From Dryococelus australis (Eukaryota > Arthropoda > Insecta > Phasmatodea > Phasmatidae): a DNA stretch of 64,000 nucleotides. The notes below the pieces were generated by a model. That model saw only the letters and a list, made by a program, of their open reading frames with translations, was not told the origin of the DNA and ran no database searches. The stretch covers positions 138,654,457-138,718,456 of the forward strand of contig CM056994.1 of assembly GCA_029891345.1 (NCBI GenBank). The letters are read 5' to 3'. Positions 2,291 through 58,129 of the stretch are shown here, in pieces (positions within the stretch are counted from its first letter, which is position 1; every line of letters begins with the position of its first letter). The translations under genes and the position numbers were made by a program.

Positions 2291-4829
2291 TTTGGTTTTT
2301 ATAAATGATTTGAGTTGGCACTTGGTTTATCTAGCTCAATAATATGTCTGACTGTGTATAAATAGTGGTCTCATTTAAGAACGAATGGGTTACAAGCTAA
2401 AGGATATCTTGATTACTAATCATGCATCCTATCTCACTTTTACTGTTATAGCTGCAAGAGGGTTCAGGCACTGCTTAGCAGTCAGAAAATCATTTAAGGG
2501 AAGATTGTCACAGTTTATTTTTTTAGTGTGGCGTAGAAAACTGGAAGAAATAAGAGGTATGCCAGATAAGGAACACTTACGTCATGATTCAATATTGGTA
2601 ATTGCTTAAGCAGTGAGTAGAATGATAAGCTGCATTCGGCCACAAAGGCATCAAGAGTATGCACTAGGCGCACACACACCCAATATTTAATTTCCCTTTT
2701 TTCTCCCAATTTCCATTTCCCCTCTTGAAATCGACTATCTTTCACATAAAATTACCCCTTTTTACAATAACATTATCAATTTTTAACTCAAAAAGAAACT
2801 ATCACCTCATTTGCAAATAACAAGGTTCTTTCTTGTGAAACTATCCATAAGAAGGATTTGGGAGGCTGGATTTTACCTGCGACCTTGAAATTCGACCTTG
2901 AACTATACACTGTAGCCTGTGACCTTGGTTGACGTAATAATAAAATAGTGGAAAATATAACATCGATGACACCAACTATAATGATGTATGCCAGTGACAT
3001 TGTCCCCAATGACCTTGAAAACAACAAATCGAGGAAAAAAAGGTAAAATACAGTAAATCCTTAAACATCGGCGAGCAAATTACTTTATTGACTATGACCA
3101 CCATCTTGGATCTAGGTAACAATGAAATTGACCCTTGACTATTAGGAGGCTTTGACAAAAAAATACTAAAAATCGAAAATATAAATAAACCGATGTAAAT
3201 TTTACACTGACCTTACCGACTGTCGTGACCTAGACATTAAATCAAAACCTTTACCTTAAATGAATTTGAAAGAAAAATAAATTACGTTTGTTATAAAACA
3301 TGCCAGAAAATTATAGAAACTGTTCAAAATATTTTAAATATTTTTTTTACAAATTTGATTAAAATTAAAAAAAATGAAAAATATTTCGAATGTTCCGGCT
3401 GAGAGGATACAGGGGAATGGAACTTAACAGTCACCGTGATATTACATTATCCAACCTCCATATTGAAACCAAATGACCTTGAACTTGACATTTGACATTA
3501 ACCCCCTGATCTTGTATGATCTTAAAAGCAAAAATCATAAAGTTCTTCAAAAAAGAAAAATTAAATTATTCATAAATAATAAATAATTACTTATATGATT
3601 ATTAAATAAAAAAAATCATTTCTGAAGATTCCATAAGTACTGTGTCCAGCATACGACCGACCCTCGCCAATGTTTCCCATTGGTTCATTAGTTGGTTCGC
3701 TTCCACTCCCTCCACCAATATTAATCATTGGTCGATTACTTGTGCTCGGTTTGACGCCAAAATTTTTATTTGTTTATTACTCAGGCCTGTTTAACCGGAC
3801 ACCAATGTTTCTCATTTCTAAATTTGTCGACAGGCCTCCGCACACTTCACCATTGCTAATTTTGTCAAATGCAGTCCACATAACATATTAATTTCTTTAT
3901 TTGACATTTGTTTTCATTTTCATCACCTAGATGATGCCAGCATATTAATTTTGATTTCGCCAATATACGAGTTGCTGTTTTAACCACCATGTCAGTTATT
4001 CCTCCACATATGTGCTCCATCCACTATCTTGTATTTTATCCATGCTTTTTTATTCCATGTCAGCCATATATAATTCCATTGGTTTAATCTAGCAGGCAAC
4101 TGGACGAATATATGTGTATCTCATGCTCTGTCATGTCATGTTCACCATTTATGATTTCGTTTTTCTCTTAATAATATTTTTTTTTTTATTTCCCACCATA
4201 CCTTCTTTATTTAGTCACAGGACATCATGTTAGATTTTATTCATTTTCTATAATTCCGCCTCAATTTAGTTGCCTGCTGATTTCTCGATCCCCTCGAACC
4301 ACCATATTTGATTACAACACTTCAGCAATCATTGATTGAAACATATAGTCTGGTCCTTTAACTTTTAATATCTTCCATTTAGTTCGTCGTTTGTGATTAC
4401 GAGACAAATAACTGTGATCTATTAAAGCAGGACCAGTCTGGTAGACATTTAGCTAGGACCTCTCTTCGCTATTTACTGCACCGAAGCATTTCTGCCAGGC
4501 TCTACTCAGCCTTCGGCCTCCTCTCCCTTCATGTCTCAGAGACAAATTTCTAACACTTCAACAGCTTACTTCCACTAATATGCACATTGAGTGATTGCCA
4601 TACACAAGAAATCTTGAAATACTAACTTTCAAATCATTATACTTTGCCCACATAATTTCACTTGTTTTCAGTATCATGCTGACATAGAATACAGTGTTGT
4701 AGTAGCAGGTACGAAAAAAGGGTACTATATTCCCCATAAACGGGAAAATAGTTTTGCAAGGACAAGTTTTCATCAACACTAGCAAGAAATTTAACATTTT
4801 TGTTTATTCATTGAAAACATAATTTACAT

Positions 4830-5240
4830 TTACATCAGAATACATATATAAAATACTGAATCCTCACATTCTCCATACAATACAGTCAGTGTCTTGACAG
4901 CAACATGCTCACTTTTCACATAATGAATATAATCTGTGTATATGCAGCTCGAGAGAATCTCACTAGAAAGCATCCACCCACAAACATTAGCCATATGTTC
5001 TTGTTCTTCAAGATAAGGTTTTTCTTTCAATGACTCTATAGCCTCTGGAATGGTATTAACCATTAACAATTCTTTATTTGCTGTCTTGACTGTCCGCTGG
5101 CTGATTTCTTCATCAAAAAATTGAAGCTTTTCAAAGATAAGCTCTAGCTAAAGAATATCTATTAATGGGCCTTCTTCGACTTCTTCTGTTATTTGATTGA
5201 TTATCCTTTGCTTAATTTCTTCCAGTTGAATACATATACT
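4830..5240 (-). pseudogene. Unrecognised helical peptide frame, left arm copy
   Basis: On the - strand this reads as a charged, probably alpha-helical protein. An upstream part (EEIKQRIINQITEEVEE) is followed, after one in-frame stop, by a part starting at an ATG at 5069 (79 codons) that contains NTIPEAIESLKEKPYLEEQE. The same peptide is encoded on the + strand of the right arm at 7,450-7,870, with the core IPEA(I/V)E(S/A)LKEK conserved. I do not recognise the family. The frame points outward from the centre of the inverted repeat. It may be a decayed gene of the foldback-like element. Confidence 0.35.
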
Positions 5241-5555
5241 TTACTTCCAAACAAAATTATCCCCAGTTACATAATCTTTTTAAAAAAACTGGAATGCTGA
5301 TATTTTATGTAGAATCCAGTCGATGTGGTAAAGCCAATAGCTAGTAATGGGGATTTCCTAGATGCAGAAAATTAAGATTTTAGTTCTTGATATGTCTATT
5401 CACCTTATCACCCCGTTAGAACAGACATATGCCCTTAACTCATAGTTGCATAGCACACGAAGAATCCTACACAAGTAGTTCCATCGTACTTTCTTGCACT
5501 TTGGCTGTATGAAAATATCTTGACAAACTAAAAACAACAGAACTTTGACGAAGTT

Positions 5556-5900
5556 ATCGAATATGGTGCTTTAGGTGCTTTAGGTGCGCCATCCGAAAAA
5601 GTTGATGACATTCCCGAAGTAGTAGACAGCGGCATTACTGTAAGTAACCCATCTGAAGAAGACCAAAGTGATATCAGCATCGTGCCTTAAGAAGTCGATA
5701 ACAACACAGCTGTAGGCGACCCATCCGAAGAAGTCGACCGTGATGCTACTGAAGGCATGCTGTTCGAAAAAGTCGACAGCACTGCTGGTATCACTTCAAA
5801 AGAATTCTATGGTTTCGTCGAAACCATGACCGAAGATGTCGATGGCACTTCCATATAGCCGATTATCTTTGGGAAGTCCGAAAATATCGCAGATGCCAAA
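5556..5900 (+). pseudogene. Acidic 12-residue repeat frame, left arm copy
   Basis: The + frame encodes acidic repeats of the form P-x-E-E-V-D-x6 (for example GAPSEKVDDIPEVVDSG, NPSEEDQSD, DPSEEVDRDAT), with a stop near 5,690 and others later. The reverse-strand frame in the right arm (6,646-7,140) encodes the same repeat and is still open. It was probably a low-complexity acidic protein. I know of no family match. Confidence 0.35.
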
Positions 5901-6180
5901 TAAGGCTGACACAAATGCGAAGCAAAGGAAGCTAGTCGAGAAGATCGACCTTTCTCATCAGCCGCTAACAAACTAGCCCTACACTGCTTATAATTTACCT
6001 GTATACAAGCCCTATGATGTAATGTTGACATTGAACCAATTGTATTATGGCTATAAGACATAGCGCGGACATCAACCAGTCAATCAAAAAGTTGCTGTAT
6101 AATTGCAGCTGGCCAATAGCATTCAGGGACTGAGACATCACACGCAGGAGCCAGTCTGCAGGGGTCAGTCTGGGGTCAGT

Positions 6181-6449
6181 CATTCCATCAATCCTTCACA
6201 TTTTTCCTCTTCAGCAATTTTTTTTATTAATCTTCCACAAACTTTCACAATTCTCCTATACAAGCCACACCAATCCTCCTCCTCGGAAATTCCTCTTCCT
6301 CCTCAGCAATCCTCCTCCTCAGCATTCATTCCTTCAATAATTCAAATCCTTCTCCACAATCCGTAGAAATCCTCTACAGCATTCACCAATCTGCACCACA
6401 TGTACCACTTTAAGCACTATATAGACCATAAACAGCATCACAAACACCG
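6181..6449. other. Spacer between the inverted arms
   Basis: About 270 bases at the centre of the inverted repeat show no arm-to-arm match by eye. On the + strand the spacer is rich in cctcctcct and ttcctcctc words. It would form the loop of a hairpin. Confidence 0.6.
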
Positions 6450-6645
6450 CAATCAGCCCTACATGCCCCACTATCACTCCAACTGACTCCTGCCTGTGAT
6501 TTCTCAGTGCCTGCATGCTATTGGCCCGCTGCAATTGCAGGGCAACTCTGTGATTGAATGTTTCTTGTCCGCACAATGCCTATTAGGCGTAATATAATTG
6601 GTTCATTTTCAAAATGAAGTCATGCAGCTTTCATATGGGTATGTT

Positions 6646-7140
6646 TTAAGTGGTTTTGTGGTCAGCTGAGATGCTAGTTTGATAGTCGCTGACGTGAAAG
6701 GTGGATCGTCTCGGATATATTCTGTGGCTTAGCGTCTGAATCAGAGTCTTATTTGGCATCTGCGATGTCTTTGGCATTCCAAAGCTGATGGGATATATCA
6801 AAGTGCCATTGAAATCTTCGAACATGTTACTGACGAAGCCATCGACTTCTTCGGGAGTGTTATCAGCAATGATATCTACTTCTTCAAGCGGTATGTCTAC
6901 AGAGGTATTGCCATTGACTTCTTCAGGCTTGAAGCTGAAAGCATCATTGACTTCTTTGAATGGGTTGCCTACAGCAGTGCTACCATCGGCTTCTTTAGGC
7001 ATGACGCCGATAGCACATTCGTCTTCTTCGGAAGGGTCACTTATATTATTGTCGCCATATATTTCTTCAGGAATGCCATTGACTTCTTCAGATGGAGCAC
7101 CGAAAGTAGTACAATCATCAATGACTTTGTTAAAGCTTCA
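6646..7140 (-). CDS. Open frame of acidic 12-residue repeats, right arm
   Basis: The - strand is open for about 165 codons from near 7,140 to 6,646, although the first ATG is only at 7,002 (118 codons from there). It encodes near-tandem 12-residue units (36 bases) such as PKEADGSTAVGN, PFKEVNDAFSFK, PEEVNGNTSVDI and PLEEVDIIADNT, with consensus P-x-E-E-V-(D/N)-x6. No membrane segment or known domain is visible. Upstream of the open part a stop immediately precedes the start of arm-to-arm peptide homology, so a splice acceptor or an older start is possible. It may be a relic or a rapidly evolving gene of the foldback-like element. Function unknown. Confidence 0.35.
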
Positions 7141-7449
7141 TGTTGTTACTTTGCAAGATATTTGCCTTCAGCCAAAGTGAAAGGAAGCACGAAATAATTA
7201 CTTGTGTGAGGGTTCTTTCTGTGCTATGCTACACTGTGTTAAGTACAAACGTCTGTTCAAACGATGTGATAAGGTGAAGAGACATATAAAGCAATATATA
7301 GGCAGAGTTCCTGTTACTAAGAAATGCACTGTACTAGATATTAATGATACCACATTGAATTGATTCTAACATAAAGAATCAGCATTCAAGGGCATTTCAA
7401 AAGATTTTGTAATTCGAAATTTATTTATTCTACAAAATATAATGTATAC

Positions 7450-7870
7450 ACTTGGATCACATTAAGCAAAGCATAATCAATCAATTCACATCAAGAAAAG
7501 TTCCCATAAAATATAATGTTCGGCTAATTTGTACCTATGAAATGCCTTAAACTTTTGTTGAGTAAATCCGCCAGCAGTCATTCAAGACTCCAAATGAAGC
7601 ATACTACAATGTTGACAGCATCCCAGAAGCTGTGGAAGCCTTGAAAGAAAAACTTTGTCTTGAAGAAGAAGAATATATGGTTGGGGGTTCTGAATGTTGC
7701 TTGCTAGCATAGACCGTCTCGAGCTGCGTATAAGAATATTGTATTAATTATGTCAATAGTGAGCAAGTTGCTTGAAATACACCTCATGTATTACATGGAA
7801 ATGTGATGATTCTGCTTTTTTCTAAGTTTGTAGTCAGATGTACGTATAAAATATATGTATTCAATGAATA
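7450..7870 (+). pseudogene. Unrecognised helical peptide frame, right arm copy
   Basis: This is the + strand counterpart of the left-arm frame at 4,830-5,240. Recognisable blocks are CIHLDHIKQSIINQ, then DSIPEAVEALKEKLCLEEEE and NYVNSEQVA, interrupted by several stops. Peptide similarity to the left arm survives through the stops, so both copies descend from one coding sequence. Function unknown. Confidence 0.35.
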
Positions 7871-10489
7871 AATAAAAGTGTTTATTTCTCGCTTGCGTTG
7901 ATATTTCCTTGACATAACGTGCCTACTTTTCCTGATATAAAGAATACGGTGTGATATTGATAATAAAAATTAATGGAATGATGTAGGCATAATATGATGA
8001 TTTGAAAGTAAGTACTTCAATTTTTTTTGCATAGGCCAATCTCTGAATGTGAATAATAATTGATAATGTAGGAAATGAATATGCTAAAGTGTAAAAAATA
8101 ATTGAGTATATAAATCCTGTAACACATTCTAAGCAGGTTAGATGTAGTAGTCTTCGAAGTAAGCTGTTGAAGTGTTAAAAATTTTTCTCTGTGTCTCAGA
8201 GGGAGAGGAGTTCGAAGGCCAAGTCGAGCCTGGTTCAGTGCAGTATATGGCTAAGAGAGGACCTACCTAAATATCTACACGTCCAGCCCTGCTCTAATAC
8301 ACCAATAATATATTTGTATAGTTAACACCGACGACGATATAAATGGAACATCTTGATGGTAAAAACACAAAGTCATATATTTTAATCAATGATTACTGAG
8401 TTGATGTAATCGAATATGGTTGTTCATGTGGATCAAATATAATTAGCAGGTTATTAGATCGAGGTTGAATTGTAGAGCATAGTTAAAATCTAATATGATC
8501 GCCTGTGTTTAAATCAAGTAGGAATGAAAGGGAATTAAGGAAGTTAATTAAAAATTAAACGAAATCAATGATGGTGATCATGGCACGATATGGCATGAGA
8601 GAGTGTTTGTTTCATTAGCTTTCCTGTTAACTTAAGCAGATAAAATCACATATGGCTGACATGGAATGATAGAGCTTACGTGTGTGCGAAAAATTGTGAC
8701 AATGTTATGTAAGATAATGGTAGTTATGGCAACTAAGATGGCCTAAATGTAATAACAAAGCATGAATGAAGTACAAGATAGTGGATGGAGCACAGATGAG
8801 AAGGAATGACTAAGCATGATGGAAAGGTGACAAAACAAAATGTAATCCAAGATGGTAGCCGGTGTCAATAATGTTATTTATCTCTCGACTTCTGGGAATT
8901 TTTTTTCATATTTTGTGATATTTTTTTCTAAATGTTTTGAGTTAAAGTTATTCTCGGGTCAAGATCCAGTTCGATAACCGAAATCATGTTAGCTAAATCG
9001 ACAACTCGTCAGGTGACAAAATCGATAATTAATACACTACCATAATCTAGGTGATGAAAATGAAAACGAAAGACAAATGAAAAAAATGAATATAGTTTAC
9101 GGAGCACATTCGACAGAATGAGCTATGGTGTAACGGGCGGAGGCATGTCGACCAATTAACCAATGAGAAAAATTGTGAGTTGAATGGAACAGGCTTGAGG
9201 AATCGACCATAAAAAAAGTTTTGTGAGTGAAGCGAGCACAAGTAATCAACCCATGAGTAACATGTTTTGGAGGGAGTGGAGGGGAGCCGACTAATGAAAA
9301 ATGAGAAACATTGGCGAGGGTCAGTTGGCTTCTAGATGCTGTGATGAGGGATTCATCGGAAAGGGAAGTATTTATAAATACAATTTTAACCATATTTTTT
9401 ATTATTATTTATAATTTATGAATCGTAAAATTGTTCAATTTTTTAAGAATTTTGTGATTTTTAAGGTTCAAGGTCATTCAAAGTCATGGGGCAAGGTCAA
9501 AGGTTGAGTTCTAGGTCACTTTGATTTAATATTGTTTGTGGGTGATGTCATATCACAGTGGCTGGTCGTTCCAGTCTCCTGTCCCCTCTAAGCCAGAACA
9601 TTACAATTTTTGTCATAAATTTTTAATAAAATTTTAAATAAAATTTTGATATATAAAAATTTTTTTGGCAACGTTTATAATTTTTGGGAATTTTATTAAC
9701 AAATTAGCGAATATTTTGGGTTCAAATTCATCAAAGGTCAAGGTCTTGGTCCATGGACAAGGTCATCTGTATCTACGTTGGCAGTCGGATCAGATCAGTG
9801 TAATTTTTTTCTCGGTATTTATTTTATCGATTTATTGAGTTGAAAGTCATTGCATTTTATTGTTATAGTGTCAAGGGCCATGCTCATGGTTACCTGGATG
9901 CAAGATGGCAGTTGTAGTCATAAACGTTATGTTCTTGCCGACATTTATGTATTCACTAGATTTTTGCCATATTTTATCGAATTTTGGTTTTCAAGTTCAT
10001 TGAGGACAATGCTACTGGCATCCAACCAGTTGGCCGGAGTCATCGATTAAATGTTTTCTTTGGCAATTTTTTTTTTTTTTTTTTTTTTACTTTTCCGATT
10101 TTTCGGAATTTTTCTGGTTTAAGGTCGTCCAAACCACTCGGCACAGGTAAACAATCAAGCTCGAAAGTCTATGTCACGAATAAAAAATGAGCCCCGAAGT
10201 CCTTCTAATGGCTTGTTTATTCAAAAATAGGGACTATTTCTTTGCAAATTAGTGTAGAGCAGCTTCAGGGGGGGGGGGGGGGAGAAACGGAAATTTTAAA
10301 GGAAAGAGAAAAATTTGAAGTGAAAAATAGTCGATTTCGAAATATAAAGGGAAATATTTAAGTGAAAAACGGAAATAAGGAAATACAAATTGGTGGCCGT
10401 AAGCGCCTATCACCTACTCCTAAATCCTTTGTGCCAGAACGCAGACACCCATTTTTCTGCAGTGGACTACATTTCTAGGAAAGATACCT

Positions 10490-11606: not shown

Positions 11607-11884
11607 ACTATCTGTAACTAACTGCGACTACCTGTGACTACTTGCAACTACCTGTGACTATTCGCAACTACCTGCGACAACTCGCGACTATTTGCAAGTA
11701 CCTGTGACTCCCTGCGAGCATCTCACGACTACCTGCGAATACATGTGACTACTTGCGACTACCTGCGATTACCTGTGACTACTTGCGAATATATGCGACT
11801 ATTTTCGCCTATCTGCGACGCCTTGCAACTACACTGGACTACCCGCGACTATCCACAACTACCCACTACTACCTGCACCTTCCT
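11607..11884 (+). repeat. 10-bp minisatellite array 1 (ctacctgcga type)
   Basis: About 27 tandem units of 10 bases with the loose consensus tgcgactacc / tgtgactact / tgcaactacc. The register holds at 10 with occasional one-base slips. The same unit occurs at 18,688-19,010 and 43,705-43,975. Confidence 0.85.
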
Positions 11885-12565: not shown

Positions 12566-13430
12566 TGTTGGGACCAGAGGATGTAATGCACGACGAATTG
12601 ATAGTACATTGTGCCCACTCGCCATATTGGCCGTGTGCGAGCCACACTCCTGGAGAGGGGAGCTGAGGAGATATTGAGATGGTAACAAACCGACCTACGT
12701 CAGAAAACAGGACGGAGGCGCTGGCCTTCTTAACCTCTCGTAGTATCGTGAATTAGCAGTTGTTACAGAACAACTGATGGAGGCGCAGTTCACTCCTTCA
12801 CCTTGTAGGCGAGCGTGCGTAGTATTTCGTTGTGACGTAGGTACAACTGGTAGAGGCACTAGCCCTCCCTTTCCCTTTTGAAAGTTATCGAATATTAGCA
12901 GTTGTCAGAGTACAACTGGGGGAGGAGCCTTAAGGTTACCGCATAGTAAATTTGATAGGGTCTTTTGTAAGTGTTTTTGCCATTTGTAAGTGTGTAGAAT
13001 CAGATACGTCCATAGTAAGTTGTAAGGGTACCAAGAGGTGTAGCAAAGAAAGGTTGTTTATTATCTCTGTATACGCGCAGGCGACAGAAACCTTAGTAGT
13101 CATCTGCAGGAGCGAGTGAATGGTCTTGCTTACCCAGCGTTACGCAGCACATACTGCTGGAACACAGCAGTGCCGAGCTCATCTTGCACTCATTCTCTGT
13201 AGTAGTAGTAGAGTAGCATTTTTCTTTCATAGTGTAATGCATGGTTGTATAACGGAACCGTTGTCAGAACCATTTCGGTAACGCTAAGCGTCTCCTACAG
13301 TAAATTTGGGTTATGTGTAGTGTAGAGGAGCAAAAAATGTATTGTGCTTGTAGTTAGTACACTAGTTTAAATAAAGAGAGCGTGTTGTTGTGTTTAATTG
13401 TCTTTGTAAATAACTATTTGGTTTGGTCGT
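12566..13430 (+). repeat. 5' LTR region of Ty3/gypsy element (+ strand)
   Basis: This begins TGTTGGGACC at 12,566. About 130 bases (12,590-12,715) match 16,505-16,640 closely, including TAGTACATTGTGCCCACTC and the phrase gatattgagatgg. The segment leads directly to a gag start at 13,469, as expected for a 5' LTR plus leader. The start TGTTGGGACC is shared with the LTRs of the related - strand element at 51.2-58.8 kb. The 3' limit of the LTR and the primer-binding site were not fixed. Confidence 0.6.
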
Positions 13431-13468: not shown

Positions 13469-14601
13469 ATGGATACACGAAGTAAATCGACGACGTCTTC
13501 CGTGAAGAAACTTTTCAAGCAGGCGTTGTTAGAAATGTAGGAAACTGAACAGATTCTGAAAGAGAAAAAATTTTGCGCGCCGAAACACGAGCGAATCCGA
13601 GCCTTCAGGTTCTTCTAGCAATCAGAATCTTTCTTTAGAATATTCGTTTAACACAATTCCGGAGAACACGTCGTTACAACATTTGGATGACACTTCACTC
13701 CTACACGACACGGAGAGCTACTTATTCCCCATAGTGCACGCGCAGTCACAATACAAACACATGTATTACAATTTAGAAACACTTAGCGTAAACACGCAGG
13801 CAAGTCGAATTGTCGATAGTGCCATAAACATCATTGCGCCAGCTTACATCACTGTCAGTCATCAGGAAAAGGTGCCTATATTTTCCAGTGCAAAAACCGA
13901 AAACGTGTCCGAATTCTTAGAAGAATTTAAAGCTGACAGTGATATGAGTGGTTGGGACGACGCCGAACGGTGTAAACGTATTCGCGTACATGTGAAAGGT
14001 GCGGCCAATTATGCGATCGATAATCTACTTCAAGTTCATGGGAACAATATTTCATGACAGGTGGTAAAAATGAAACTGCGTAATATTTTTACACCTAGGG
14101 AGGAGAGTGAGAAGTACAGGCAGCTTCTCTATACCAAACGGCAAGCGCTAGGTGAAAGTTGCCAGCAACATGTCGAGATGCTACTGTAGGTACTGCAGAC
14201 ATAAGTACAACCCACATGTCCAAGATGCGGAGTTTATTAGCATACTCTGGAAGTCGCTTCTTTTATCGATCGCGGATAACATTATTGGATTGGAAAATAA
14301 GACAGTCGACAAGATGATACGTAATATGAAGCGAGAAGAGGTGGAAATCTGCCGATACAATCAGGCGGTAGCTACAGTTCTAAACAATCCCAATACAGAG
14401 CATTTCCGTACTGAAATCGCTAAGTTGAAGGAAGAAATCGGTAAGCTTATGCTACAAAATCAGCGGTCACAGGACACGGTAAAGCAGATTGGGAATAGTT
14501 GCCGAGGTGCGGACAGAGGCATAAATTCACGCCAGTACACAAATCAACCCTGCAAACCGTTTTTGAACAATCAGTTTTATCCTAGGAATAGGTACGGGTA
14601 G
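13469..14601 (+). pseudogene. gag: Ty3/gypsy gag, broken
   Basis: The gag frame starts at ATG 13,469 (MDTRSKSTTSSVKKLF) and is broken by a stop after about 23 codons. It resumes in another frame at about 13,650 with the capsid-type phrase NVSEFLEEFKADSDMSGW, and continues after a further stop near 14,055 with KLRNIFTPREESEKYRQLL and a charged helix (14,400-14,470). Gag would form the particle that packages the element's RNA. At least two frame breaks make it inactive. The capsid phrase resembles the gag of the - strand element at 56.9-57.4 kb, so the two are one lineage. Confidence 0.7.
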
Positions 14602-16250: not shown

Positions 16251-16487
16251 TTAATGTATACCTTAATGGCTACGACGCTATCTTGCATCCAAACTAACAC
16301 CGTAGCATACACTGATCGTGTCGCGACTGAGTGGAAGAAAACTCTCCCGTTCCACTGTACCGACGGCGACGTTCACTATCCTGGACAGCTCCACTTCACG
16401 ATGCCACCATTAAAGTTCGACTTCCTCCTTGCCCCACGACTTCCCCAGCAGCCGTGGACGTCTGCTCCCAGTGGAGGAGGATGATGT

Positions 16488-16750
16488 GACTACAGGTTGT
16501 ATTGTAGAACGAATTGGTAGTACATTGTGCCCACTCGCCATATTGGCAGTGTGCGAGTAATACTCAAGGAGAGGGAGCTCAAGAGATATTGAGATGGCAA
16601 CAATCCGACTTACCTCAGAAAACAAGACGGAGAGAGGTGCAATAAATAGCGCCACTGGAAGCGCGCTCACCCCCACTCTACGGCCCAAACTCAGTCGCTT
16701 TGGCCATTTGTCGGCCTGAGTGTAACCGATCAAGAAGACGATTTCTGTAG
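16488..16750 (+). repeat. 3' LTR region of the + strand Ty3/gypsy element
   Basis: This follows a purine-rich tract (gtggaggaggatga, 16,473-16,486). The sequence at 16,505-16,640 repeats the 5' LTR segment 12,590-12,715 with scattered differences, then the two diverge. A SINE-like body at 16,770-16,905 sits downstream. The real 3' end of the LTR was not found. Confidence 0.55.
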
Positions 16751-18687: not shown

Positions 18688-19010
18688 CCTGCGACAACAA
18701 GCGACTACTTGCGACAACTTGCAACTCCTTGCCACAACTTGCAAGTACTTATGGCAACTTTCGACTACTTGCGACAACTTACAACTTGCGACTAATTTTG
18801 ACAGCATACAATATTGGGCGAAAATTTGAGACTACTTGCGACAACTTATGACAACTTGCAAGTACTTGCGACAACTTGCATCAACGTGGGACTACTTGCA
18901 ACTAATTAGGACAACTTACGATAACTTGCGACTACTTGTGACAACTTGTGACCACTTACTACAAATTGCAACTATCTGCGACAACTTGAGACAACTTGCG
19001 ACAAAAGAAT
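18688..19010 (+). repeat. 10-bp minisatellite array 2 (gcgacaactt type)
   Basis: Tandem 10-base units (gcgacaactt, gcaactcctt, gccacaactt, gcaagtactt), interrupted by about 32 unrelated bases near 18,797-18,828. Because three units make ten codons, the array creates repetitive but probably meaningless open frames on both strands. It adjoins the Helitron fragment. Confidence 0.85.
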
Positions 19011-41000: not shown

Positions 41001-41814
41001 TGATAATATTCTTTGCTTAGTAAACCTATATATTATGTACACATATAGATACATGCATATGAATATTTCATCTATGTTTGAGATCCAGTCAATGGCAGTT
41101 CTGGGGAAACCACAAAATTATATGCGTAAATTCTGAGTCGCTATAGAAGTTAGTCAATAAAAAATTATTTACAAAAAGTGTGTTCATCTGTAAATCAAAC
41201 AGCTCACGTATGTGTTGTAAAACTCGGGGTTTTATATTTGAATCGTTTTGAAAAACATTAGGGCATATATAATGAGTCATAAAATAAATATGTATATTAA
41301 TGTGTTACATATATATGGAGAAAGTTTTAAAGTCAGAATTGTTTTAACAACGAACCATTATCAGATAAATAAAAGACAGTAAATTTTAGAGAAATATTTA
41401 TATGTGTGTCTTCATGATATAATGTATAGTGCTACATAATTTTTAAAGCTACTAATCTTGAGCACCAAGCTCATTCTCAGTATCATGAATAGCAAAATTA
41501 ATTTCATTTAGAATTTGTGTCCTTTTTGTTATAACAATTCTAGTTCATTTCACTCATACATAAAATTAAGAAATACTGCCAGTGTTACAGAATATTAATA
41601 CACTGAAGACATAATCTGGCCTATAAACAAAAATGTTGTTCAGTAAGATAGAATATTTGTCTAAGAACATCGATGGAACATTTCGGAGTAGAGTGGAGAG
41701 ATTTGGACAGCTTTTAAAATCACTATTTTTGTAAAAAATTAATTATTTAAGCTTATTTTCATAAACATTTACACCATAATATGTAACAGATATATTTGTC
41801 ATGTTTTTGCTCAC
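32861..41814 (-). other. IR intron 1 (8,954 bases)
   Basis: The intron lies between the donor CACAG/gtgagc (at 41,814) and the acceptor tttag (at 32,861). It is AT-rich and without recognised genes. It holds small TA microsatellites (near 33,345-33,368), a large TA run (34,960-35,020), and a stretch at 37,140-37,400 with degenerate cagtctacagtc-like words. Frames of 60-112 codons inside it (for example 37,076-37,414 + and 37,951-37,655 -) match nothing. Confidence 0.75.
34960..35020 (+). repeat. (TA)n microsatellite
   Basis: About 30 uninterrupted TA units inside the IR intron. Confidence 0.95.
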
Positions 41815-43003
41815 CTGTGCCATTCTCTTGTGTTACTCCCCACAAGTTCTCCGGGTCCAGTTTTTTCTTCCATGTCATATTTAATTTCTGTGATAGTTCC
41901 TTTAGTAGGCGGAACTCTGTGCCATCATCCACATCTTTCTGGTCCTGGAAATCCAGGACGGTGAATGGTAAGTAGTTGAACGCTACGATAATTAGCGGTC
42001 TGCCCGCAAGGTCAGCCAACTTGTCGGGGAACAAGTGTCCCACATGCTGGACTGCATCGCCTACTGACCACCTGGCCAAAACCTGGGTCTCTGATGGATC
42101 TGGATAGGAGAATTTATGGGTAATGGCTTCTACAAAGAGACCTTCTTGTACCTGAGGACAGCCCGGTTTACTTGTCACTGTGAACACTTTACCAAACAGA
42201 TCACTGTTCACCTTCATTTCTAGGTTCAGTCTAGGATCTGCCACTGTGTTTTTTTTCATGGCTCTTACTGGCGAATTGTCTTTTATGTTGAACATGTTTT
42301 CTGTTACTGTGCTGTTCACTCTCATGTGCTGAATTTGGAGAGGCTGGAGCTGCATCTTTCCAAAACAGTTATCTTTTTGATCCAGATTTTTACTGCAATA
42401 ACGTGAAGATGCAACAGAATGCCCATTACATTCTGATCGAAGAAGTAGAAGGTTTGACAAAAAATTTGCTTCTTTCATAGAGAAAATCTCATTTTCGTTT
42501 GCATATTCGTTACGAATGTGGGGCCCTCTTGTAAAGAGACGAGTAGGAGGTAAGAAAACATATTTTCTGTTCATTCTTTGGATGCTATGACGAAGCAAGT
42601 CTGCTACAATTCTGATCATGTCTTTCGGTCTCGTTGTCTGGAAAATATATGCAGAACAACCTATGTCCAGTGTGTGTAAGACCATTTGTCGAAAAGAGAA
42701 ATTTGATGACCAAATGCTTCTTGTAGTGTCCTTGTTGAATCCAATGATTTCTGTATTCCCGACATTTTCTTCAACTTCTAGTAAATGATAAACAGAATTA
42801 TGATCTTTAAGATATCTTAGAATTTCTCCAGCGTTGTTCTGGGTAACCACAACAATACAACTGGATCCAATCATATGATCCCTTACAATAGAATTTAAAA
42901 TTTTTCCAATAAATTTTTCATTCATATAAGTGCTCTTTTGGCAAAGAACGCACCCAACAATAAAAATTGCCGTAAATAAGTGATGCTTCATCTGGACAGA
43001 CAT
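41815..43003 (-). CDS. Ionotropic receptor (IR) gene, exon 1
   Basis: Intact exon of 396 codons plus one base, from ATG 43,003 to the donor at 41,814. A second Met at codon 5 directly precedes the signal peptide (HHLFTAIFIVGCVLC, residues 7-21). Residues 25-320 are the divergent extracellular N-terminal region typical of insect IRs, including SAYIFQTTRPKDMIRIV and KYVFLPPTRLF. From about residue 322 the ligand-binding domain begins (LFPDKLADLAGRPLIIVAF, YLPFTVLDF), with the lobe S1 end at LWGVTQENGTG across the splice. IRs are membrane channels related to ionotropic glutamate receptors and serve smell, taste, or temperature and humidity sensing in sensory neurons. The sequence fits the divergent IR class rather than the conserved co-receptors (IR8a, IR25a, IR76b), though the subfamily cannot be named. 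Upstream of the ATG the DNA is AT-rich with TATA words. Confidence 0.9.
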
Positions 43004-43630
43004 TTCATCTCATAGAGTGTATATAATTTAAACAGTAAATGTTAAACAATCATATGCATATATAGAGTCTACTAAATAAATGTTAAATAATGCATATAAT
43101 TATACATTGCAGTAATTCACAAAACTGTTGTCATCAATCTTCTTCAGGACACCTACTGTAACTAGAAGTTCTTCCTTTACAAATAACCGTAGTAACAAGC
43201 AGCCACAGAATATGTCCACGTATGTATCAACTGTTGCAGGATACTTCTTGCAGCGCTTTGACATGTCGATGTTCCGGTCTATTAAAATTAATATTTGAGA
43301 TGTCCATATCGACTATCTCGTTCCAAATTCAGAGGTATATAGTATTATATTTGCTTACAAACATAGCCTTTAGTAATAATGCAGATACCTACTTGCGCGT
43401 TTCCCATCAAGGATTTAGAGGAGTGATGGCAGTTTTTTGGCTTCCAAGTTGTTCCTGCAAAAAGTGATGACATTTTTCTCGTGACAGTCTGACAAGTTTA
43501 GAAATCAGTACGTTTTAGTGAGCTAGTAGTATGTCTCTAACAGTCTGCCAAATCGCTGAGGATAGTAATTTGAAGTCCACTGAGTCTCTGAATAGAAAGT
43601 TTACATTTAAAGGCGAAATTATTTATAAAC
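43004..43630 (-). other. Upstream flank of the IR gene
   Basis: AT-rich region that should hold the promoter of the IR gene. TATA-like words lie within about 40-60 bases of the ATG on the - strand (tatataca, ctatatatgc), but no initiator could be chosen with confidence. No gene seen. Confidence 0.4.
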
Positions 43631-43704: not shown

Positions 43705-43975
43705 TGCGACTACTTGTGACTACTTGCGGATACACGCGAATATCCGTGACTACCTGCGGATACCCTCGACTACCCGTGACTACCCATGACTACCTGCGAA
43801 TACCTGTAAATTTCTGCAACTGCCGATGTCTACCATTGACTATCTGCGACTACCCGTGATTACATGTGACTACCTGTGACGATCTGCAACTATCCATGAA
43901 AACCAGTGACTACCACGACTACCTGTGTCTGCCCGTCACTACTTCCGACTACTTGCGACTACTTGCGAATTTGTA
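43705..43975 (+). repeat. 10-bp minisatellite array 3
   Basis: Tandem 10-base units (gcgactactt, gtgactactt, gcggatacac) directly follow a CA/TA microsatellite (43,678-43,705). The unit family is the same as at 11.6 and 18.7 kb. Confidence 0.85.
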
Positions 43976-43984
43976 ATATTAAGA

Positions 43985-45075
43985 TCCACTCAGCCACTGG
44001 GGCTGATATATTTCTATCTACTAAGCCACTGTGCCCCACTTGAGAGTGCTCTAGCCTCTGAGCAACTGCGTCCCCACTTGGAATCGCTTTAGCCAATAGG
44101 TCACTGCAGCCCCACTTGAGAGTATTCTAGCCACTGAGCCACAGAGGCCCCACATGTCATTACTCTATCCATTGGGCCTCTGGGCCCCATAAATATATTT
44201 CTATCCTTTGAGCCACTACGGCCCCACTTGAGGTTTTTCTATCCATTGAGCCGGTGCGGCCCCACTTAGGATCGCTTTAGCCATTTTGCCACCGTGACCC
44301 CACTTGAGTTCGCTCTAGTCACTAGGCCTCTGTGGCCCTGCTTGAATTATTTCTATCAACTGAGCCAAAGCAGCCCCACTTGAGAGTGCTCTAGCCACTT
44401 AGCCACTGCGTCCAAACTTGGGATCGCTCCAGCCACTTGGCCACTCTAACTCCACTTGATATCTTTCTAACCATTGTGCCGCTGTGGCCCCACTTGGGAT
44501 CGCTCTAGCCCCTGGGCCACTGCAAGCCTACTTAGGATCGCTCTAGTCACTACTAGGCCACTGCGTCTCCACTTGAAATATTTATATCCACCGAGCCACT
44601 GCGGCCCCACTTGAGATCGCTCTAACCACTGAGCCACTACGTCACCACATGGGATCGCTCTAGTCGCTGGGCTAGTGTGGTATCACTTGGTATCGCTATA
44701 GACACTGGGCCACTGCGGCCCCTCTTGGGATGGCTTTAGCCACTGGGCCACTGTGGCTCTACTAAAGAGTTCTTTAGCCAGTGGGCCACTGCGGCCCTAC
44801 TTGGTATCGTTCTAGCCTCTGACCCACTGTGGCCCCTTTTGAAATCTCTCTGGCCACTGGGCCATTGCATCCCCACTTGAGATCTCTCTATCTACTAGGC
44901 CTCTGTGGCCCTACTTGGGATTGCTGTAGCTACTAAGCCACTGTGGTCCCTCTTGGTATTATTCTTCCCACTAAACTAATGTTGCCCCAATTGATTTATT
45001 TCTATGCACTGATCCACTGCGGCCCAACTTGGCATAACTGTACCCACAGGGCATCTTAAGCCACACTTGATATAT
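43985..45075 (-). repeat. ~45-bp satellite resembling repeated tRNA 5' ends
   Basis: About 24 tandem units of roughly 45 bases, with + strand consensus near GCCACTGCGGCCCCACTTG followed by GGATCGCTCTAGCCACTGG. Read on the - strand each unit gives GTGGCTCAGTGGCTAGAGCG, very like the 5' half of a tRNA gene with its A box. Exact CCACTGAGCCA occurs at 44,131-44,141 and 44,627-44,637. No B box was seen in the units. Confidence 0.8.
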
Positions 45076-56884: not shown

Positions 56885-57397
56885 TTATTTGGTGTATCTG
56901 TCAATTTCATTTAAGGGGGTGAAAACTGATTTTAATTTGTTTTCTACCTGCAGCCATGTTAACTCTTCTGTGTGAGAGTAGTGCAAGTTTCTGTATGCTT
57001 GTTGTTTAGCAGTGTATCGCAAGTAAAGTGCAATATGGCTGCATTTTTTGCTTTCTGACCACACATTTATGTCACTTGCTGAGTTATATGTGTTCAGAAA
57101 TTCTTTAATGTCTTCATCCTTGTCCCCTGTAAATGTGGGAATGGCTTCAGCAAAGTTTATATTTATTTGAGATGGCTGTTGTGTTTTAGGGGGTGACAGT
57201 AATTGTGGCATATCAGTAGTTTCATTAATGTTGGGTGGTTGAGGGGTGTGTGTCGTTTCAGCCGAGGAACACACATAGTGGTGTTCTGGGTTTTCATTTA
57301 TATTGATGTAGATGTGCTTGGTGGGCGGGATTGAAATTAAAAATGGCTGTGTTGTCTGTAGTGATTGTAATGGGTGGAGTCGCAGATACCTGCTCAA
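56885..57397 (-). pseudogene. gag: Ty3/gypsy gag fragment (largest open piece)
   Basis: A 170-codon - strand frame contains FAEAIPTFTGDKDEDIKEFL, SASDINVWSESKKCSHIAL and LQVENKLKSVFTPLNEIDRY. These align in order with the gag of the + strand element (VSEFLEEFKADSDMSGW, KLRNIFTPREESEKY). A proline- and threonine-rich N-terminal part precedes the capsid. It lies next to the 5' LTR at 58,130, as expected. Confidence 0.7.
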
Positions 57398-58129
57398 GCT
57401 TGTTTGTTACAAGGTATATTCACTGGTGTCTGAGAAGGAATTATCGAGTGCCGACTATTGTTGTGTAGATGCTGTGTTTAAATATTCAGGTAGGGTTGTA
57501 AGTTGTCTTGTTAATTCGTTTTGTGGTTCCTCTAATGTGCGCTCAGCTTCACTTGGGCTGATTGTTACTGTTTTAATGAATTTTGTTAGTTTCTTGGACG
57601 TTGATTAGCCTTGTTTGTTCAGGCTTCATGTTAGAGTAGTGTATTGTAGGGTTTTCTGTGTAACATATGAGGTACACTCTCAATAATAAGGCAAGATTTC
57701 CTATTCTCTACAATTTCCACATATGCCACACAGTTGTGGAAATTTGCAAAAGCGAATTTTGCAATATGGTGTGAAGAGTGGATCTATGTTTTAAACATGC
57801 ATTAATTTCTTTAAGCAAGCATGCACACTTATTCTAAGGCATAAACTGGGCGACTGTTCGGCATAGCGGCTTTTCGATATGCGGCAACTCTGGCTCACAT
57901 GCTCTGGTGCGGCCACGAATAAAGTGCTGACTGACACAACAGTGCTGGCATGAATGAGTGCTTACTATTGCTTTGAACATTTAATACCCTGGTTGTGTAG
58001 ACACGGTCTACACAAGGGAATTGAAACACTTAGGGCAGGTGTACGGCATTACACATTTTTACAATTGTCACTATTTTCATTTAATTTTACTTTAAGGGGT
58101 GGGTCAGAGAGCCGAGTACCTCCAGCATT
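57398..58129 (-). other. Leader of the nested gypsy element
   Basis: AT-rich sequence between the gag fragment and the LTR. The - strand directly after the LTR reads aatgctggaggtactcgg, a possible primer-binding region. A 98-codon + frame (57,312-57,608) is antisense and probably meaningless. Confidence 0.4.

Follow-up and report, generated by a model that had tools for sequence, protein, structure and literature searches.

Two described systems come closest to the element studied here: the Galileo/Foldback elements of Drosophila, where Galileo belongs to the P superfamily, has another transposase and makes target duplications of 7-8 bp, and the self-synthesizing, virus-like Maverick/Polinton transposons. 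The terminal repeats of Galileo have grown by internal sequence, vary in length and take a TIR1-F1-F1-TIR2 layout (TIR, terminal inverted repeat), as parts of one study describe (PMC3573991). Vertebrate Mavericks are 12.7-24.6 kb long, their terminal repeats measure 46-1447 bp, their commonest end motif is (AGT)2//(ACT)2, and intact ones lie between 6-bp duplications, according to the sections of PMC8097293 that treat these traits; part of PMC12220804 gives 6-bp duplications as typical of the retroviral-type integrases of such elements. Here, we analyzed a stretch of 64,000 nucleotides (the window) of Dryococelus australis, at positions 138654457-138718456 of contig C2 (CM056994.1) in a genome of 3.4 Gb and 646 contigs, which holds an inverted repeat of 7843 bp (2616-10458) bounded by a 6-bp duplication. 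We suggest, at a probability of roughly 0.8, that this feature is a foldback of the Maverick/Polinton type, 7843 bp long, non-autonomous and decayed. At 7.8 kb, with repeats of 3.5-4 kb, it lies outside both vertebrate ranges, and it resembles Galileo in the growth, arrangement and variable length of its terminal repeats, but its duplication and ends are Maverick-like. The mirror form is unusual, but the element is not a wholly new kind.

Layout, copies and ends of the element

The giant, diverged inverted repeat that an earlier note had described from this DNA is real. In inverted orientation, the main block of the arms matches at 70% identity (blastn E 0.0), and global alignment gives 71.1% identity over 3454 paired columns, with 433 transitions and 565 transversions. 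A central spacer is present, at 326 nt and not the proposed size of ~270, and the proposed boundaries, 2610 and 10460, lie 6 and 2 nt off the ends defined by the duplication (2616 and 10458). The parts of the structure are as follows.

2610..2615, no strand: left copy of the target site duplication GCAGTG, 6/6 match with 10459-10464
2616..2704, plus strand: left terminus, AGTAGAATGAT.., 5/6 to AGTAGT; profile E 4e-11 (this terminus is itself a row of the profile)
2616..6155, minus strand: left arm (A), 3540 nt in centre-to-outside reading, 71.1% identical to arm B
5906..6155, minus strand: inner end of arm A, with the ATTGG/CCAAT motif as in B; promoter-like by motif only
6156..6481, no strand: central spacer between the arms, 326 nt, TCC-rich in part
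6482..6731, plus strand: inner end of arm B, with ATTGG (inverted CCAAT); promoter-like by motif only
6482..10458, plus strand: right arm (B), 3977 nt, from blastn and global alignment
7960..10369, plus strand: outer part of arm B, no recognized coding frame (frames of at least 120 amino acids judged by eye)
10370..10458, minus strand: right terminus, AGAAAAATGGG.., 3/6 to AGTAGT; profile E 1.6e-12 (likewise itself a row of the profile)
10459..10464, no strand: right copy of GCAGTG, 6/6 match with 2610-2615

The window element is one member of a large dispersed family. Queried with 1.1 kb of the left arm, the genome returned 2045 first-look candidates; 40 of these were scored, and their main matches, the window excluded, were 70-76% identical. 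From this list we took 25 loci (L009-L033), and eight short loci besides; L034, L035 and L036 were added for other reasons, the latter two being chosen by their match to the window's centre. Four out of the 25 loci (L010, L016, L021 and L027) have a facing second arm at the inner end, which in two of them is short (161 and 292 nt), five (L011, L019, L022, L026 and L030) have a single gene with shorter terminal inverted repeats, and 16 show a single arm whose partner was not recognized. The terminal repeats measure ~0.5-1.1 kb in L011, L022, L026 and L030, and in the window and L016 they take up the entire arm. L035 is a foldback with a truncated arm, and L036 a foldback whose termini were not recognized. 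The centre itself, used as query, gave 1951 candidates; among the 40 that were scored, 6000-6640 was matched over at least 575 of its 641 bases, at 63-68% identity, in five places apart from the window. Finally, 24554 candidates came up when the genome was searched with the encoded peptide; among the 150 that were scored, pairs within 10 kb comprised six head-to-head, one tail-to-tail and no tandem cases, against an expectation of 0.07, and the two members of the sole tail-to-tail pair have equal scores. A large protein collection yielded no scored relatives (searches of 6 and 4889 candidates), and viral contigs yielded none for the family and none for the Maverick piece. Because the arms are 29% different and the same layout recurs at other loci, it is unlikely that the 8-kb inverted structure is an assembly fold, in line with what the earlier note had argued from the difference.

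Target duplications, which the earlier note had coupled with further copies as something to look for, are there as well, since GCAGTG stands directly outside both ends. Of the duplication lengths from 4 to 10 that were tried, only 6 bp matched fully in the window, in L019 and, shifted, in L030; random pairs of 6-mers from the window match fully in 0.06% of cases. Because GCAGTG abuts both ends and no other length matches fully, the element was most likely inserted once, as one whole. Family termini were placed by taking the homology ends of L026, L028, L030, L032 and L033 to a pattern and from there to a profile, which gave 29 termini, from 21 out of the 25 arm loci, L035 and the window; the end of L031 comes from the pattern alone, and a few others were extrapolated by at most 5 bases. 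Compared with AGTAGT, 12 of the 29 are exact, 12 have one mismatch, four have two and one has three, a count biased toward AGTAGT by the use of the first ends' motif in seeking later ones, whereas the duplications are independent of it. The 6-bp duplication fits four out of the six copies with both ends placed; the match is 6/6 in L019, 6/6 in L030 provided that the left end has 3 extra nt, and 5/6 in L026 provided that the left end is shifted by one.

The gene and its relation to Maverick polymerase

The earlier note had reported two separate peptides. Both frames do occur in both arms, but there is one coding frame, and the idea of two peptide families was rejected. In L028, a 218-codon frame runs from serine/threonine (Ser/Thr)-rich repeats through zinc fingers to the first part of a conserved region; the repeat (L028:4761-5414) and the zinc fingers share one reading frame, and the zf-C2H2 match of the latter (E 0.0034) stays under Pfam's cut-off. 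The IPEAVEALKEK peptide is the later part of the zinc-finger frame, as seen from a 138-codon frame of L010. The acidic frame is real but antisense to the Ser/Thr-rich coding repeat, and it stays open in the right arm, for 163 codons from stop to stop, because the repeat has three stop-free frames out of six there; in the left arm it has 2 stops. The remains of the gene are listed below.

6788..7130, plus strand: 12-residue Ser/Thr-rich repeat of arm B, with an open sense frame, like the repeat in L028:4761-5414
5573..5862, minus strand: Ser/Thr-rich repeat of arm A, broken, 2 stops
6649..7137, minus strand: acidic frame with PxEEVD, open for 163 codons, on the strand opposite to the Ser/Thr-rich coding repeat
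7141..7561, plus strand: zinc-finger region and downstream part of arm B, broken, with 3 stops and 4 frameshifts against L028
5109..5525, minus strand: zinc-finger region and downstream part of arm A, broken, 6 stops and 3 frameshifts
7605..7690, plus strand: IPEAVEALKEK peptide of arm B, last part of the conserved region
4830..5069, minus strand: IPEAIESLKEK peptide of arm A, 79-codon frame, no Pfam match

The family frame is collinear with the N-termini of Maverick polymerases. We compared a profile of nine hand-picked frame pieces with five pieces of Maverick polymerase N-termini from the same genome and obtained an alignment of 110 columns with E 0.0012; against a single Maverick sequence, the profile gave E 0.0076. 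After removal of the repeat columns the score was 30.9, compared with 20.7 for the best of 200 column shuffles (0 out of 200 reached it) and 13.8 for the reversed profile. In the profile searches that the earlier note had in view for its peptides, IPEAIESLKEK had no match in Pfam, and the family frame aligned with the polymerase N-termini. The family seems to hold only the N-terminal region of the polymerase, in diverged form. Like Maverick/Polinton elements, the window element has a 6-bp duplication, an (AGT)2//(ACT)2-like end motif and terminal inverted repeats; of their polymerase, it seems to have only a region that resembles the N-terminus. The earlier note had considered an undescribed foldback element; a foldback-type mobile element it is, but not of an orphan type, given its Maverick-like ends, its duplication and the alignment with polymerase N-termini.

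Several points weigh against this assignment, in addition to the bias in the motif count. The right end of the window element matches AGTAGT at just 3/6, and no terminus was found in four out of the 25 arm loci (L009, L015, L021 and L029). L011 and L016, two out of the six copies with both ends, lack the duplication, and when the outer 6-mer together with an AGTAG-like start was sought upstream in 19 loci, only L019 gave a convincing second end. The hhalign probability of the polymerase alignment is 19%, and a second family alignment gave E 0.012 and 3.6%. The window element gave no match at E <= 1 to any of eight Maverick pieces, among them those of integrase and polymerase, so that the polymerase link is carried by the profile comparison by itself. 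The gene runs outward, opposite to the Maverick of L034 and to most vertebrate Mavericks, although the same part of the literature reports outward orientation for a cane toad Maverick (PMC8097293). Furthermore, no autonomous element that shares these ends came to light as a parent.

The individual searches agree with a reduced element. With a single Maverick N-terminus piece as query, tblastn matches to family copies did not go below E 0.28, two later polymerase pieces had no match to the window element at E <= 1, and an integrase query of 169 amino acids had none in 28 targets at E <= 1. None of four capsid, ATPase and protease pieces, labelled by eye except for a double jelly-roll (DJR)-like capsid, matched the window element. 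Because the integrase piece is unmatched, we place the element among the non-autonomous derivatives of Maverick/Polinton rather than among its full members. It would be tempting to assign it instead to a foldback element of another DNA-transposon superfamily (P/Galileo-like, Mutator-like or Dada) with long, variable terminal repeats, since no Maverick enzyme piece was found in it and Galileo repeats are likewise extended by recruited internal sequence, in the part of PMC3573991 on their structure. We consider this improbable. Only 6 bp, out of lengths 4-10, matches fully in the window, L019 and shifted L030, the termini are (AGT)2, the gene aligns with Maverick polymerase, and no transposase was found by Pfam among 13 scanned frames of the window element. 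One peptide tried against PHROGs had no match, three shorter frames of the outer part of arm B had no credible Pfam match, and an Rfam search of the window had none.

The genome looks extremely rich in Mavericks: the polymerase N-terminus piece and a second polymerase piece gave 13938 and 16841 first-look candidates, respectively, and 150 out of 150 scored matched in each case. One Maverick lies beside L018 (L034 with L018). Its capsid piece is DJR-like (7.1e-9), its integrase piece (rve, 1.3e-5) and its piece of family-B polymerase (0.0016) both stay under Pfam cut-offs, its polymerase N-terminus piece had no Pfam match, and the two copies of its own terminal repeat are 92% identical. It is not supported as a parent of the family, for the search there yielded neither a duplication matching the outer flank of L018 nor a second family end. 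Maverick remnants stand just outside family copies at three loci, namely L034:510-8500 with L018:1-3400, L028:32-436 (polymerase piece, E 3e-12) and L031:7020-7370 (capsid-like piece, E 2e-7). Given the abundance of Mavericks, this adjacency may be due to chance.

Decay is widespread in the family. The zinc-finger region was aligned from 33 copies, and apart from the reference L028 all of them (32 out of 32) carry at least one stop or frameshift. Two subfamilies differ at 20 diagnostic sites, 14 of them at third codon positions (p 0.0009), whereas copies of subfamily 1 differ nearly equally at codon positions 1, 2 and 3 (0.18, 0.19 and 0.19). The peptide constraint that the earlier note had looked for between the arm frames is not seen in the window: differences at the three positions are 0.32, 0.33 and 0.21, with no third-position excess, so that selection on the window's arms was discarded. 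Because the excess exists between subfamilies but neither within subfamily 1 nor between the arms, the source gene seems to have been constrained, with free decay of the inserted copies. In second-subfamily copies, ~118-bp tandem repeats in varying number lie next to the gene (L027:2848-3311 and 7363-8022). ATTGG or CCAAT occurs at a mean of 2.2 per 250 nt at 17 inner ends versus 0.62 over the fetched loci, and 17 out of the 150 scored peptide matches are stop-free (longest open frame 350 codons), as might be expected of a host gene pair with a shared two-way promoter. Stops in the other 133, the 24554 candidates and the target duplications speak so clearly against a host gene pair that we give it almost no credence.

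Formation of the symmetric form

In the Maverick-type element that we propose, the terminal inverted repeats would extend inward through the remaining gene, giving two gene-bearing arms. From centre to outside, each would consist of a promoter-like 5' end, the Ser/Thr-rich repeat, the zinc fingers, the polymerase-N-terminus-like region, ~2.5 kb without recognized genes and the terminus. The element was probably moved by other Mavericks, whose integrase and protein-primed polymerase, encoded in the same genome, would act in trans on these ends, and its arms may have been near-identical at the time of insertion.

The symmetry itself could have arisen by fold-back copying during protein-primed replication or by chromosomal repair that lengthens the terminal repeats, as has been argued for Galileo (PMC3573991), and the variable repeat length fits both. 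The latter concerns formation only, the element being the same, and we put it at somewhat less than an even chance; the range from ~0.5-1.1 kb (L011, L022, L026 and L030) to a whole arm (window and L016) speaks for it. However, the duplication outside both arms of the window indicates that the element was already symmetric when inserted, and the centre shared by several loci speaks for mobility as a foldback. Because of these two observations, we lean tentatively toward fold-back copying.

A tree of 33 arms is star-like. The arm pairs of L016, L027 and L036 are sisters (bootstrap 99-100); in the window and in L035 the two arms do not group, although the approximately unbiased (AU) test does not reject their sisterhood (p-AU 0.32 and 0.42, respectively). 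The end branches of the window's arms measure 0.17 and 0.20 against a median of 0.095, a comparison that is biased, as the loci are mostly best matches to the window. The tree leaves the window's arms ungrouped, single-gene copies are common, and the L016 pair has no flanking duplication, all of which could hint at two independent single-arm elements that came to lie head to head by chance, or at an inverted genomic duplication of one. Either would be a very improbable account, even more so than another superfamily: a single perfect duplication encloses the entire 7.84 kb, centre and spacer are matched at five other scored places, and the arms may still be sisters. We also tried A-arm and B-arm lineages common to the window and L016 and rejected both (p-AU 0.003 each), with groups named post hoc, when the L016 arms were already sisters, and sides assigned by eye from the spacer.

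We speculate that the symmetric copies might be integrated 'snap-back' genomes, that is, defective parasites of a protein-primed virus-like element, which we regard as unlikely. A displaced strand would fold near the polymerase promoter, and one genome end would be copied onto both sides. Symmetric one-end defective genomes of adenovirus are inverted duplications of one end that keep both replication origins. The comparison is one of how such things work, as those genomes are free viral DNA and the present element is integrated and known from its sequence; the excerpts of the adenovirus literature on left-end fragments in incomplete particles do not mention a symmetric form. Inverted twin polymerase pieces of equal score occur at C5:154182170-154183783 with C5:154202103-154203716, and at C7:130334077-130341836. 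The C5 twins have the same stops, which suggests a recent inverted chromosomal duplication or an assembly fold, and inverted twin Mavericks were set aside as support for snap-back.

Other features of the window and meaning of the family

Elsewhere in the window, 10-bp repeats that are related to one another (like ACTACCTGCG) form three arrays, at 11617-11876, 18690-19004 and 43705-43968, and an array of a 38-bp unit with a 114-bp higher-order period lies at 44004-44955. A 416-codon frame on the minus strand (41759-43009) resembles an arthropod ionotropic receptor by eye, unsupported by Pfam or a structure collection. Retrotransposon Gag-like frames, also judged by eye, were noted at 13560-14054 and 56885-57406, the second of which had no Pfam match, and 12566-12717 and 16482-16632 form a 152-nt direct repeat of 84% identity.

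Non-autonomous Polintons are listed in Repbase. In the open literature, searches by phrase returned none with non-autonomous (or nonautonomous) Polinton or Maverick, or with Maverick MITE (miniature inverted-repeat transposable element). Mavericks connect transposons with DNA viruses, and a high-copy non-autonomous family that retains a polymerase-related piece and is able to form a foldback would show such elements breeding their own parasites. The many copies provide material for testing the origin of the symmetric form. If the snap-back idea is true, copies that kept both their replication and integration ends would have outreplicated their helpers and become extremely numerous, and the family would preserve, like a fossil record, the defective interfering genomes of a DNA transposon.

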